Shown in pieces: positions 1 through 26,792 of a DNA stretch of 64,000 nucleotides. Source of the DNA: Agrococcus terreus. GTDB taxonomy: Bacteria; Actinomycetota; Actinomycetes; Actinomycetales; Microbacteriaceae. Under the pieces are notes generated by a model. That model searched no databases. It saw only the letters and a list, made by a program, of their open reading frames with translations, and was not told the DNA's origin. The number at the start of each line of letters is the position of its first letter. Within the stretch, counting starts at the first letter, position 1. The stretch covers positions 992,001 through 1,056,000 of the forward strand of contig NZ_BMLM01000001.1 of the NCBI RefSeq assembly GCF_014645235.1. The letters are read 5' to 3'. The position numbers and the translations under genes are program-made.

Positions 1-483
1 GAGCACGAAGTCCATCGCCTCGCCGATCTTCAGCCAGGGCGCGCCGACGGGCGCGCACAGCAGCGCGGGACGGACGTCGGGCACGGCGTAGGAGTCCCCC
101 GGGTGGTACAGCGCCTCGTTCACGAGCACGCCGAGGTTGTCGACCACGGGGATGGAGGAGTGGATGACGGCGTGCTGCCCGCCGAGGAAGCGCAGTCGGA
201 ACGGTCCGGCGGTCACGCGCTCGCCCGCCTCGACCGCGCGCACGTCGAAGCCCTCCGCGGCGCGGGCCACGCCCTCCGGGCCGTAGATGGGCACGTTCGG
301 GTTGGTCCCGCGGAGCGCCCGCAGGTGCTCGGCGTCCCAGTGGTCGGCGTGCTCGTGGGTGATGACGATCGCGACGACGCCCGTCGGGGCGAGCGGGCCC
401 GTCTGGTTGCCCGGGTCGATCACGAGCCGCTGCCCCTCCTCCTCGAGGACGAGGCAGGCGTGGGCATGCTTGGTGACGCGCAT
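1..483 (-). CDS. MBL-fold metallo-hydrolase, 3' end cut off by window edge
   Basis: A metal-dependent hydrolase of the metallo-beta-lactamase fold. The 161 visible codons begin at an ATG and run off the left edge, so the C-terminus is missing. Residues 43-48 are HEHADH, the HxHxDH zinc-ligand motif, and a later YHPGDS carries the usual next acidic/His ligand region. The start is supported by a TAGGGT box 6 nt upstream with no Shine-Dalgarno, which suggests a leaderless transcript. The gene is divergent from the lipid kinase at 691, and a long palindrome lies between them. The fold is clear; the substrate cannot be told, although UlaG-like lactonases and related phosphodiesterases share this layout. 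Confidence 0.85.
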   Translation of the reverse strand, partial: MRVTKHAHACLVLEEEGQRLVIDPGNQTGPLAPTGVVAIVITHEHADHWDAEHLRALRGTNPNVPIYGPEGVARAAEGFDVRAVEAGERVTAGPFRLRFLGGQHAVIHSSIPVVDNLGVLVNEALYHPGDSYAVPDVRPALLCAPVGAPWLKIGEAMDFVL

Positions 484-532: not shown

Positions 533-601
533 ACCCGCACATGTGCAGGAAACGGCTGTTCTGGCATGCGCATGGCAACCCTTTCCTGCACATGTGCGGG
601 T
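533..601. repeat. Long palindrome with perfect 20-bp arms between divergent genes
   Basis: Arms 533-552 and 582-601 are exact reverse complements over 20 bp, separated by a 29-nt loop. Each arm itself contains the palindrome GCACATGTGC, and the loop contains CATGCGCATG. The element lies between the divergent starts at 483 and 691, so it is not at the 3' end of either gene and is badly placed for a terminator. An operator or a REP-like element is more likely; the function is unknown. Confidence 0.85.
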
Positions 602-690: not shown

Positions 691-1593
691 GTGCACGTCG
701 TGGTCGCCTCGAACCCCGCAGCCCGGTTCGGACGATCGGGCGAGGTGGGCGCGCGCGTCGCGGCCCGCGTCGCGGAGCTCGGCCACGAGGTGACGCACGT
801 CGCGGCGGCCGACGCGCGCGGCCAGCTCGAGCAGACGCGCTTCGCGATGATCCGCGGCGACGCGCTCGTCGCCGTCGGCGGCGACGGCATGGTGCACGTC
901 GCGCTGCAGGTGGTCGGCGGCACCTCGAAGCCGCTGCTCGTCGTGCCCGCCGGCAGCGGCAACGACCTCGCCGAGGCCCTCGGCATCCGCTCGGTCGAGC
1001 AGGCGATCGACGGGCTCGAGGCCGCGCTCGCCGCCCGCCCCGAGCGCATCGACCTCGTGCGCATCGAGCATCCCGAGGGCGTGGCGCTCGCGGCCGGCAT
1101 CGTGTCGGTCGGCTTCGACGCCGACGTCACGGTGCGGTCGTCCCGGATGCGCCGCGTGCCGAGCCGCGTCCGCTACGAGGCGGCGATCGTCGCGACGCTG
1201 CTGCGCCTGCGCCACCGCAGCTTCCGCGTCCGCATCGACGGGGGAGCGGAGCGCACCTGGCGCACCGTCATCGCCGCGGTCGCCAACAACCGCACGCTCG
1301 GCGGCGGCATCCCGCTCGCGGCGAGCGCCTCGATGCGCGACGGCCTGCTCACGGCGGTCTTCGCCGACGAGCTCCGCTACCCGGCGTTCCTGCGCCTGCT
1401 CGTGCGTGCGCTGCGCGGCACGCACCAGTCGGATCCGCGGGTGACGACGATCGACTGCGAGACGGTCGAGCTCGCGAGCGACGAGGAGGTCGTCGTGTGC
1501 GCCGACGGCGAGGTCGTGGGGCGCCTGCCCGTGCGCTGCTCGACCATGCCGGGCGCGCTGCGGGTGCTGCTGCCGGTGCCCTCCGGCGCGTGA
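691..1593 (+). CDS. Diacylglycerol/lipid kinase family protein
   Basis: An ATP-dependent lipid kinase of the DAGK catalytic (DgkB/YegS-like) family, 300 aa, the normal family length. The nucleotide-binding GGDG motif is in VAVGGDGMVH (about residues 63-72), followed by the conserved PAGSGNDLAE segment (about 88-97). The C-terminal beta-sandwich region is complete. It would phosphorylate diacylglycerol or a related lipid at the membrane and recycle it into phospholipid synthesis. The GTG start at 691 sits 6 nt after a TAGGGT box. It is transcribed alone, and tRNA-Glu follows. The family is certain; the exact lipid substrate is inferred. Confidence 0.88.
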   Translation: MHVVVASNPAARFGRSGEVGARVAARVAELGHEVTHVAAADARGQLEQTRFAMIRGDALVAVGGDGMVHVALQVVGGTSKPLLVVPAGSGNDLAEALGIRSVEQAIDGLEAALAARPERIDLVRIEHPEGVALAAGIVSVGFDADVTVRSSRMRRVPSRVRYEAAIVATLLRLRHRSFRVRIDGGAERTWRTVIAAVANNRTLGGGIPLAASASMRDGLLTAVFADELRYPAFLRLLVRALRGTHQSDPRVTTIDCETVELASDEEVVVCADGEVVGRLPVRCSTMPGALRVLLPVPSGA

Positions 1594-1709: not shown

Positions 1710-1782
1710 GGCCCCATCGTATAGCGGCCTAGTACGCTGGCCTCTCACGCCGGTAACGCGGGTTCGAATCCCGCTGGGGTCA
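1710..1782 (+). tRNA. tRNA-Glu (anticodon CTC)
   Basis: A 73-nt cloverleaf. The 7-bp acceptor stem pairs GGCCCCA with TGGGGTC, including one G-U pair. The anticodon stem is CTGGC/GCCGG around the loop CCTCTCAC, with anticodon CTC at 1744-1746. The T arm is GCGGG-TTCGAAT-CCCGC. The discriminator is A1782, and the following bases are CCT, so the terminal CCA is not fully encoded. A strong stem-loop follows directly. Confidence 0.95.
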
Positions 1783-1788
1783 CCTGAT

Positions 1789-12313: not shown

Positions 12314-12506
12314 GGCTTCCCTCCTCCTCGCGGCACCGGTCGTCCGCGTCCCCCGACGCTAGGGGCCGAGGCTGGCAGCGCGGTGACCGCCCGCGCAGGG
12401 ATCCGCCCCTCCGAAGGGGGCCGGAGGGGCGGATCGTGCCGCGGCGAGGGGGCGCCGCGGCTGCTCGGTGCTCGTGCGGGCTCGGAGCTCGTACGGGTCT
12501 CGGGGC

Positions 12507-15291: not shown

Positions 15292-15441
15292 GAGTGGCGC
15301 CGTCTGGCTGGTGAGTGGCGCCGTCTCGCACTCGAGTGGCGCCGAACGCCATCGAGTGGCGCCGAACGGTCGACACTGGCGCCCAATGCCAGCCGTCCGC
15401 CGCCGCTCGACGCCAGAAGTCGCCACTCACCGACCACTGAG
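15292..15441. repeat. Array B: five direct units plus inverted copies
   Basis: GAGTGGCGCC begins at 15292, 15313, 15334 and 15354, and a variant CACTGGCGCC at 15374: steps of 21, 21, 20 and 20 bp. An inverted unit at 15409-15428 reads on the minus strand GAGTGGCGAC then TTCTGGCGTC. A partial array-A-type inverted unit (CAGTGGTCGG on the minus strand) ends at 15441. The inverted A and B units agree at 14 of 20 positions, so the arrays are two classes of one element. The array ends about 50 bp before ychF. Confidence 0.85.
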
Positions 15442-26677: not shown

Positions 26678-26725
26678 GGGCCCATCCTGGCGGCCGCCGC
26701 CCACCGTGTCACCCGGTCGGCGCGA

Positions 26726-26776
26726 GGTGCACGCGGTGGTCGTCCAGCGCGCGTCGGAACGACCACCGCGTGCACC
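26726..26776 (-). repeat. Perfect 18-bp inverted repeat after the Lrp gene
   Basis: Arms 26726-26743 and 26759-26776 are exact complements; loop 15 nt. It starts 16 bp beyond the stop of the Lrp-type gene (26793, minus strand), which suits a terminator for the Lrp/aminotransferase transcript, although the arm is unusually long and perfect. Confidence 0.75.
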
Positions 26777-26792
26777 AGCCGGAAGCAGCGAG

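Follow-up and report, generated by a model that had tools for sequence, protein, structure and literature searches.

A dispersed palindrome of Agrococcus terreus as the probable recognition site of a chromosomal AbiEi-EDxHD nuclease

Introduction

In REPtrons, RAYT genes are flanked by the same repeats as their dispersed extragenic palindromes (PMC3733652). AbiEi-type binding to inverted repeats is described for Rv2827c, which occupies pairs of 23-bp repeats laid out as 23-13-23, 59 bp in all, with 0, 1 or 2 binding events (PMC7319586). For I-Bth0305I, a dimer on a target of nearly 60 bp has been reported (PMC3943268), and the MTES_1575 REase domain is named in PMC3710099.

Here we describe a palindrome from Agrococcus terreus, at positions 533-601 of the window (the whole stretch of 64,000 nucleotides that was analysed), together with the family to which it belongs. 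Its organization resembles that of REP/REPIN-RAYT systems, in that short dispersed extragenic palindromes accompany a cognate enzyme gene bracketed by the same repeats. It differs in that the enzyme is a predicted AbiEi-EDxHD nuclease, that several tag/enzyme pairs occur per genome, and that the elements measure 61-65 bp as opposed to 20-40 bp. A search of the A. terreus genome for RAYT (Y1_Tnp, PF01797) gave no match (0/1 genome; control positive in 5/14), and neither a GTAG nor a CGTC foot was found at the ends of the ten copies aligned below. Because the defining enzyme, the foot motif and the size all differ, we place the system outside REPtrons despite the similar organization.

With AbiEi operators (AbiE, Rv2827c) the system shares the predicted fold of the N-domain and an inverted-repeat pair of ~59-61 bp, one pair lying upstream of the gene; unlike them, it has an added nuclease C-domain, and it also has sites on the downstream side of the gene and dispersed through the genome. 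With I-Bth0305I and Vsr it has in common a predicted catalytic fold with conserved E, D, H and D, and the length of the palindrome recalls the reported dimeric target of I-Bth0305I. In contrast to EDxHD homing endonucleases, the gene is a resident of the chromosome, with no intron or intein seen, and it does not interrupt its own target, since two intact palindromes flank it in A. terreus. By weak sequence match the C-domain belongs to the DUF559/REase_MTES_1575 family (PF04480, PF18741); MTES_1575 itself is a large fused protein, presented without palindrome association in the excerpts of PMC3710099. Full-text searches of open-licence papers, judged mostly by titles and abstract openings, brought up nothing that we recognised on AbiEi/DUF559/MTES_1575-type nucleases with palindromic repeats. 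The pairing of gene and repeat, which recurs in other Actinomycetota, suggests a previously undescribed repeat-and-nuclease system, and we would place this possibly mobile system outside the known families. With a probability of roughly three in four, in our estimate, the chromosomal AbiEi-EDxHD nuclease recognizes the palindrome as its site, and the palindrome is a member of a REP-like family of dispersed repeats dependent on that nuclease.

A palindrome between two divergent genes

Over 20 bp the two arms, at 533-552 and 582-601, are reverse complements without a mismatch, and when extended to 26 bp they pair at 92%; GCACATGTGC occurs in each arm, and CATGCGCATG, at 565-574, forms a small palindrome in the loop (Table 1). 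A sequence-only reading of the window had reported this architecture, and arm comparison and shuffles bore it out, except that the arms it called identical are reverse complements of each other. The palindrome is real and far beyond chance; its RNA fold, on either strand, was better than 200 of 200 shuffles (z -5.6 and -7.8). It lies, as had also been noted, between two divergent genes, in a 207-bp spacer bounded by gene starts at 483 (-) and 691 (+).

Table 1. Features of the window and of the A. terreus nuclease locus (window positions unless a contig is named; R2 is the wider covariance model described in the text)
Feature	Position	Strand	Remarks
Solitary palindrome	533..601	none	Subject of this study; conserved 61-bp core GCACATGTGC-N41-GCACATGTGC at 537-597; R2 match 535-599, E 2.2e-17
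Left outer tag, GCACATGTGCAGG	537..549	+	Subfamily-specific; putative contact of the AbiEi-like domain
Right outer tag, GCACATGTGCAGG inverted	585..597	-	Read from the sequence
Left inner block	549..563	+	Related to the GAAyGGyCGyTCTG motif common to many subfamilies; would lie under the nuclease domains
Right inner block	571..585	-	Imperfect in the window copy
Metallo-beta-lactamase-fold protein, flanking gene	1..483	-	Start codon at 483; extends beyond the window; PF13483, E 1.3e-14
YegS/diacylglycerol-kinase-like protein, flanking gene	691..1593	+	PF19279, E 3.2e-36; PF00781, E 8e-15
Second superfamily element in window, tag GAGTGGCGCC	15349..15413	none	R2 E 2.2e-10; own-genome cognate rank 14/24
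Third superfamily element in window, tag AGGTGCACG	26720..26782	none	R2 E 1.6e-9 for 26726-26776; best own-genome score 11, tied, noise level
Nuclease gene, locus L018	G000:C2:746523-747443	-	306 aa; palindromes at 746429-746493 and 747506-747570

A -10-like TAGGGT stands 6 nt 5′ of each start codon, and TAGGCT or a close variant is found 5′ of the kinase start in relatives with a readable spacer; a simple scan found no sigma-70 promoter. The position of TAGGGT fits the earlier suggestion that both flanking genes are leaderless, which is plausible. Downstream of the kinase gene, a tRNA-Glu (CTC) occupies window positions 1710-1784. In two relatives (G023 at L233 and G021 at L234) the divergent spacer is 308-335 bp long, and to judge by eye a short ORF with CxxC-type motifs seems to lie in it, between the two genes.

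A dispersed family with variable outer tags

BLAST found six full copies of the element in the 2.83-Mb genome of A. terreus (G000), with an aligned core of 61 bp; four are solitary and two bracket a nuclease gene. The 19-nt arm occurs at 11 sites with at most 3 mismatches, against 2 for the reversed control. Among 40 genomes (A. terreus included, 24 of the genus), sequence matches to the window element were confined to A. terreus and a congener, G017, and in a set of 398 family genomes to which G017 does not belong, the exact pattern GCACATGTGC-N40..44-GCACATGTGC occurred in A. terreus only, at 5 places. At G000:C1:822452-822470 (L021, L210) there is half an arm of a GCACATGTGCAGG element whose partner is absent, possibly a decayed copy.

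We aligned ten copies (A1) and built a covariance model, R1, from them. R1 had matches in 27 of the 398 family genomes, A. terreus included, and many, but not all, of these were palindromes of the same length and plan with different outer sequences. A second alignment, A2, holds 46 elements from 21 genomes in one 60-61 bp frame, with doubtful or unneeded matches omitted (e.g. L036, L042, L046-L048, L050, L051 and L053); R2 is the wider model. In the plan of A2 the inner block reads approximately GAAyGGyCGyTCTG, a GA close to the ends is conserved, and the outer tag varies by genome and subfamily; mean information is 1.00, 1.33 and 0.64 bits per column, respectively. R2 matched 21 of the 24 genus genomes, with 35 matches in A. 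terreus and 41 in G017, both strands counted. Elsewhere in the window, R2 matches weakly and in part at 12400-12435 (E 1.4e-4, model positions 16-50), which may be a remnant or a chance hairpin. In another genome, at L071 (G171:C1:2866631-2866890), three elements stand in a row at 95-bp spacing.

Two-sided changes were present at 29 of 30 A2 pairs, and the covariation score was 0.686, compared with 0.212 in shuffles, in an alignment whose rows were picked by a structure model and which therefore leans towards pairing; in A1, with ten copies only, two-sided change was not above shuffles (420 of 500 as high). Paired changes and a strong predicted fold on both strands would suit an RNA hairpin acting as a terminator, an mRNA stabiliser or a small RNA, but we regard this explanation as very improbable. 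No Rfam family reached its gathering score for 533-601. As the sequence-only reading had argued, the element is not a normal terminator: it sits in a divergent spacer and has no terminator-like T run, and a scan returned 0 terminators. The A2 mismatches comprise 64 G.T, barely more than the 53 A.C, and 109 others, with no strand bias, and the elements show no strand overdispersion (chi2 34.9 for 42 elements). Because G.T and A.C are nearly equal and strand bias is absent, the constraint appears to act on DNA rather than on an RNA hairpin.

A nuclease gene bracketed by matching palindromes

Seven of nine examined pairs of elements lying ~1 kb apart enclose a gene of one protein family; among the nine, the L082 gene overlaps one element, and the ORFs listed for L066 and L049 fall outside this family. 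The tag core of the window copy, GCACATGTGCA, is present on 4/4 arms of the two palindromes that bracket the A. terreus gene, and the two bases that follow it vary (CG/GG in one palindrome, TG/TG in the other). The upstream palindrome ends 63 bp before the nuclease start, a distance that, like those given for G017 below, depends on a crude gene caller. Judged by eye, the neighbours of the gene are MFS transporter-like and 2H-phosphoesterase-like, and no AbiEii was recognised among them.

In Pfam searches with six nuclease proteins, REase_MTES_1575 (PF18741) matched 6/6 below the cut-off, DUF559 (PF04480) matched 1/6 above it, and AbiEi_1 matched two at E 0.03-0.08. PADLOC AbiEi models matched 4/6, the A. 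terreus protein not among them, with a best E of 1.1e-9. In an AlphaFold2 model of the A. terreus protein (43 sequences; pLDDT 93.8, pTM 0.89), residues 2-200 resemble, among the matches listed, S. agalactiae AbiEi 6y8q (Z 10.7, rmsd 6.8, 176 aligned) and Rv2827c 1zel (Z 8.1). For residues 205-306 the resemblance, again among the matches listed, is to the catalytic domain of I-Bth0305I 3r3p (Z 12.1, rmsd 2.6, 94 aligned), NGO0050 3hrl (Z 10.8) and Vsr 1cw0 (Z 9.5). The catalytic residues, by our own assignment to the letters of the EDxHD motif, are conserved, with E208, H256 and D265 in 83/83 genes and D239 in 82/83.

Between A. terreus and G017, dN/dS is 0.29 for the whole nuclease, 0.34 for the N-domain and 0.22 for the C-domain. 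The nuclease is 69% identical in these two genomes, the MFS-like neighbour 90% and the 2H-phosphoesterase-like neighbour 53%; because one neighbour is only 53% identical, fast divergence is no argument for the nuclease. A relative in Agrococcus sediminis NS18 is 54% identical over most of the protein. In G017 a further nuclease gene (G017:C1:1799847-1800725, L114) lies in pieces, in several frames and with an internal stop, and adjoins a GCGGTCAC-tagged palindrome.

The two sites of a gene change together

A profile of the six nuclease proteins matched 24/24 genus genomes. We collected 85 nuclease gene loci and used 83 for a shared-stretch test, leaving out L139 (short flank) and L208 (below 190 bits). 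A stretch of at least 14 bases common to the upstream and downstream flanks was present at 58 of the 83 genes, compared with 13 of 332 cross-gene pairs, a control that itself holds some same-tag or syntenic pairs. For the 50 of these 83 loci with 760 bp on both sides, the ungapped flank score was at least 15 at 41, compared with 2 of 100 controls taken from these loci with a 510-bp shift; at 9 of the 50, bracketing was below threshold.

Shared flanking sequence connects one nuclease locus across 18 genomes, and the nuclease genes are therefore resident. This residence argues against homing or gene drive, in which solitary palindromes would be empty targets and the bracketed gene the occupied form. 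Such a process would find support in the EDxHD-like catalytic fold, in a site-gene-site layout that looks like an occupied form, and in the existence of split, broken gene copies such as the one in G017. Both sites are intact beside the gene, however, so that it would have no immunity against its own cutting, and where a genome has the gene its solitary sites are still empty; we consider homing unlikely.

In 258 of 295 syntenic pairs, with 6 ties, the match between a gene's own upstream and downstream sites exceeded the cross-ortholog match (these pairs, from different genomes, share genes and are not independent). Mean scores were 33 for own and 17 for cross matches, against a null of 9.5, and the cross-ortholog score was 11-12 when protein identity was below 65%. 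Because the own match beats the cross-ortholog match, the two sites flanking a gene change jointly. Tags are often related where the proteins are, as with CGGGGAAG or CGGGAAG in the six cluster 1 genes, and a GGTACC group. Among non-syntenic genes, scored by exact 10-mer tags, the correlation between tag and protein is weak (Mantel r 0.09, with 2 of 2000 permutations as high), and ungapped tag scores show only a small rise with protein identity, above 0.5. In one protein cluster (L173, L177, L178, L180 and L181) the flanks carry tandem iteron-like repeats (TGAGTGGCGCCTCCCGCA and the like) and not clean palindromes.

Solitary copies and their turnover

For 22 of 40 solitary elements, the nuclease flanks of the element's own genome scored best of 24 genomes, and for 29 of 40 they were in the top three; ties are included and count as rank 1, and some rank-1 scores are at noise level (window 26720, score 11; L092, score 12). 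The other 18 of 40 had no best match in their own genome. The mean score of solitary elements was 19.25 with the genes of their own genome, compared with 10.4. The window copy scored 36 with the A. terreus gene, 16 with the G017 gene and at most 12 with others. The remaining window elements fail this own-genome test, the one at 15349 ranking 14th and the one at 26720 coming first only by a noise-level tie.

The divergent spacer is readable in 20 of 24 genus genomes (G003, G005, G012 and G015 being the unreadable ones); the palindrome is present there in A. terreus and G017 and absent in 18, so that 1 of 19 other readable genomes keeps the site. In G017 it lies 28 bp from one gene start and 20 bp from the other. 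The sequence-only reading had offered two interpretations, an operator with two half-sites, for which conservation in orthologous divergent regions would be expected, and a REP-like mobile palindrome. Because the site is kept in 1/19 and dispersed copies exist, its own tests favour the second, although not in the strict sense of REP, given a genome in which no RAYT (Y1 transposase) was found and a length of 61-65 bp. The operator idea survives in its geometry, as arms facing each other over ~60 bp match the layout of AbiEi-type operators and an AbiEi-like domain is predicted in the cognate protein, but the element is no operator reserved for this divergent gene pair. That reading is thus partly supported; the partner gene and the gene-specific tags had no place in it.

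Besides the nuclease locus, the window site alone has shared flanks among the fetched elements of A. terreus and G017. At three other sites (434k and 397k of A. terreus, 95k of G017) the other species has the flanks but not the element (no R2 match, E up to 1), and alignments of these empty sites show no clean junction and fit gain and loss equally. This count leaves out 415k, 221k, 1120k and 986k, two of which have superfamily elements nearby (L265, L266). R2 elements also lie close to the divergent genes that flank the window copy, without falling in the spacer itself, at L226 (972-1035), L233 (480-544) and L234 (433-497).

Dispersed, short elements with terminal inverted repeats and presence/absence differences call to mind a MITE: a transposon, itself non-autonomous, that has 20-bp terminal inverted repeats and is mobilized by an ordinary DDE or Y1 transposase. 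The recurrent partner gene encodes a nuclease, however (7/9 close pairs), our search, which covered Y1, found the genome to be without that transposase, and no target-site duplication was readable at the window or empty sites, where the spacers are too diverged to resolve one. We give the MITE explanation scant credence.

A more serious rival is a regulator without mobility. The protein would be an AbiEi-like repressor whose nuclease domain is vestigial or unrelated, its palindromes would be operators, and the solitary ones would be a small regulon or neutral strays, with no nuclease-driven spread. In their own promoters, AbiEi and Rv2827c occupy paired inverted repeats (Rv2827c: PMC7319586), one A. 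terreus palindrome ends 63 bp upstream of the nuclease start, and the window copy sits between two divergent starts. On the other hand, most of the genes tested have a matching repeat on their downstream side too, 82-83 of 83 genes retain the catalytic residues, dN/dS of the C-domain is 0.22, and solitary sites differ between A. terreus and G017. We regard a pure regulator as possible but somewhat doubtful.

A model for site recognition and spread

Under the preferred reading, in which the palindrome is the recognition site of the nuclease, each of the two inverted arms would be occupied by one protein molecule. Its AbiEi-like N-domain, the faster-diverging one, would read the outer tag of 10-13 bp, and the two conserved EDxHD/Vsr-like C-domains would meet over the inner motif at the centre. 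By analogy with the AbiEi-type and I-Bth0305I targets, a 61-bp palindrome with a variable tag and a conserved centre suits two molecules with diverging AbiEi-like and conserved EDxHD-like domains. The resident gene is bracketed by two matching sites, the upstream one probably serving autorepression. Solitary copies such as 533-601 would arise from copying of the site to new places, possibly through repair of nuclease-induced breaks, and may then act as stray operators, as the proximity of the G017 copy to two gene starts might allow. What the sequences show directly is the copies, the bracketing, the pairing of tags with genes, the joint change of tags on both sides of a gene, the presence/absence differences of solitary sites, the predicted fold and the conserved catalytic residues; binding, cleavage, copying, mobility and an effect on transcription are inferred. 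Since a single cell contains both uncut sites and a nuclease that is apparently intact, any cutting must be rare or conditional, if it takes place at all.

If this reading is true, a large number of actinobacterial proteins that have no function in family libraries (DUF559/MTES_1575 type) each gain a candidate target site, readable from their flanks. The arrangement would be a second, unrelated invention of that seen in REP-RAYT systems, and would provide a natural series of enzymes and sites for studying the evolution of DNA specificity. The origin of dispersed Actinomycetota palindromes would also become directly testable in laboratory strains.

Relatives in other Actinomycetota

The nuclease protein was found in 162 of 396 phylum genomes (Actinomycetota, A. 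terreus included) in a search that scored up to 5 genes per genome. We took the best match of each genome outside the genus and, with our own genome left out, used 29 of 30 loci. A shared upstream/downstream stretch of at least 14 bases bracketed 16 of the 29, compared with 0 of 174 controls; bracketing was below threshold at 13.

G463 belongs to another family of the same class. When 696 kb of this genome, away from the gene loci, were compared with the flanks of five listed genes, 17 matches were obtained, 14 of which fall in five places spanning a whole element (two matching the flanks of L302, two those of L300 and a longer one, of ~80 nt, those of L301) and three elsewhere. Reversed sequence gave 1 match (27 nt), and the flanks of eight genes from other genomes gave 8, one of them element-like. 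Across 708 kb of G463 the matches to R2 were no more than weak (best E 0.0014), and the model scored other-family sites poorly or not at all. To judge from these matches, solitary copies appear to occur in another actinobacterial family.

A broader proposal is a phylum-wide class of Actinomycetota elements, in which AbiEi-EDxHD nucleases propagate the palindromic sites that they recognize, or police them, each paralog has one site pair, and enzyme and tag diverge together; REP-like spread would then proceed by nuclease-driven copying, independently of RAYTs. We put the odds of this at about even.

Distant relatives of the nuclease are few in mobile-element collections. Three were found in a plasmid collection, on Arthrobacter plasmids, and a phage collection held one. 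The phage relative, at MT837503.1 4989-5972, is 30% identical over 97% of the protein and comes from an unannotated 6.7-kb phage record from human faeces.
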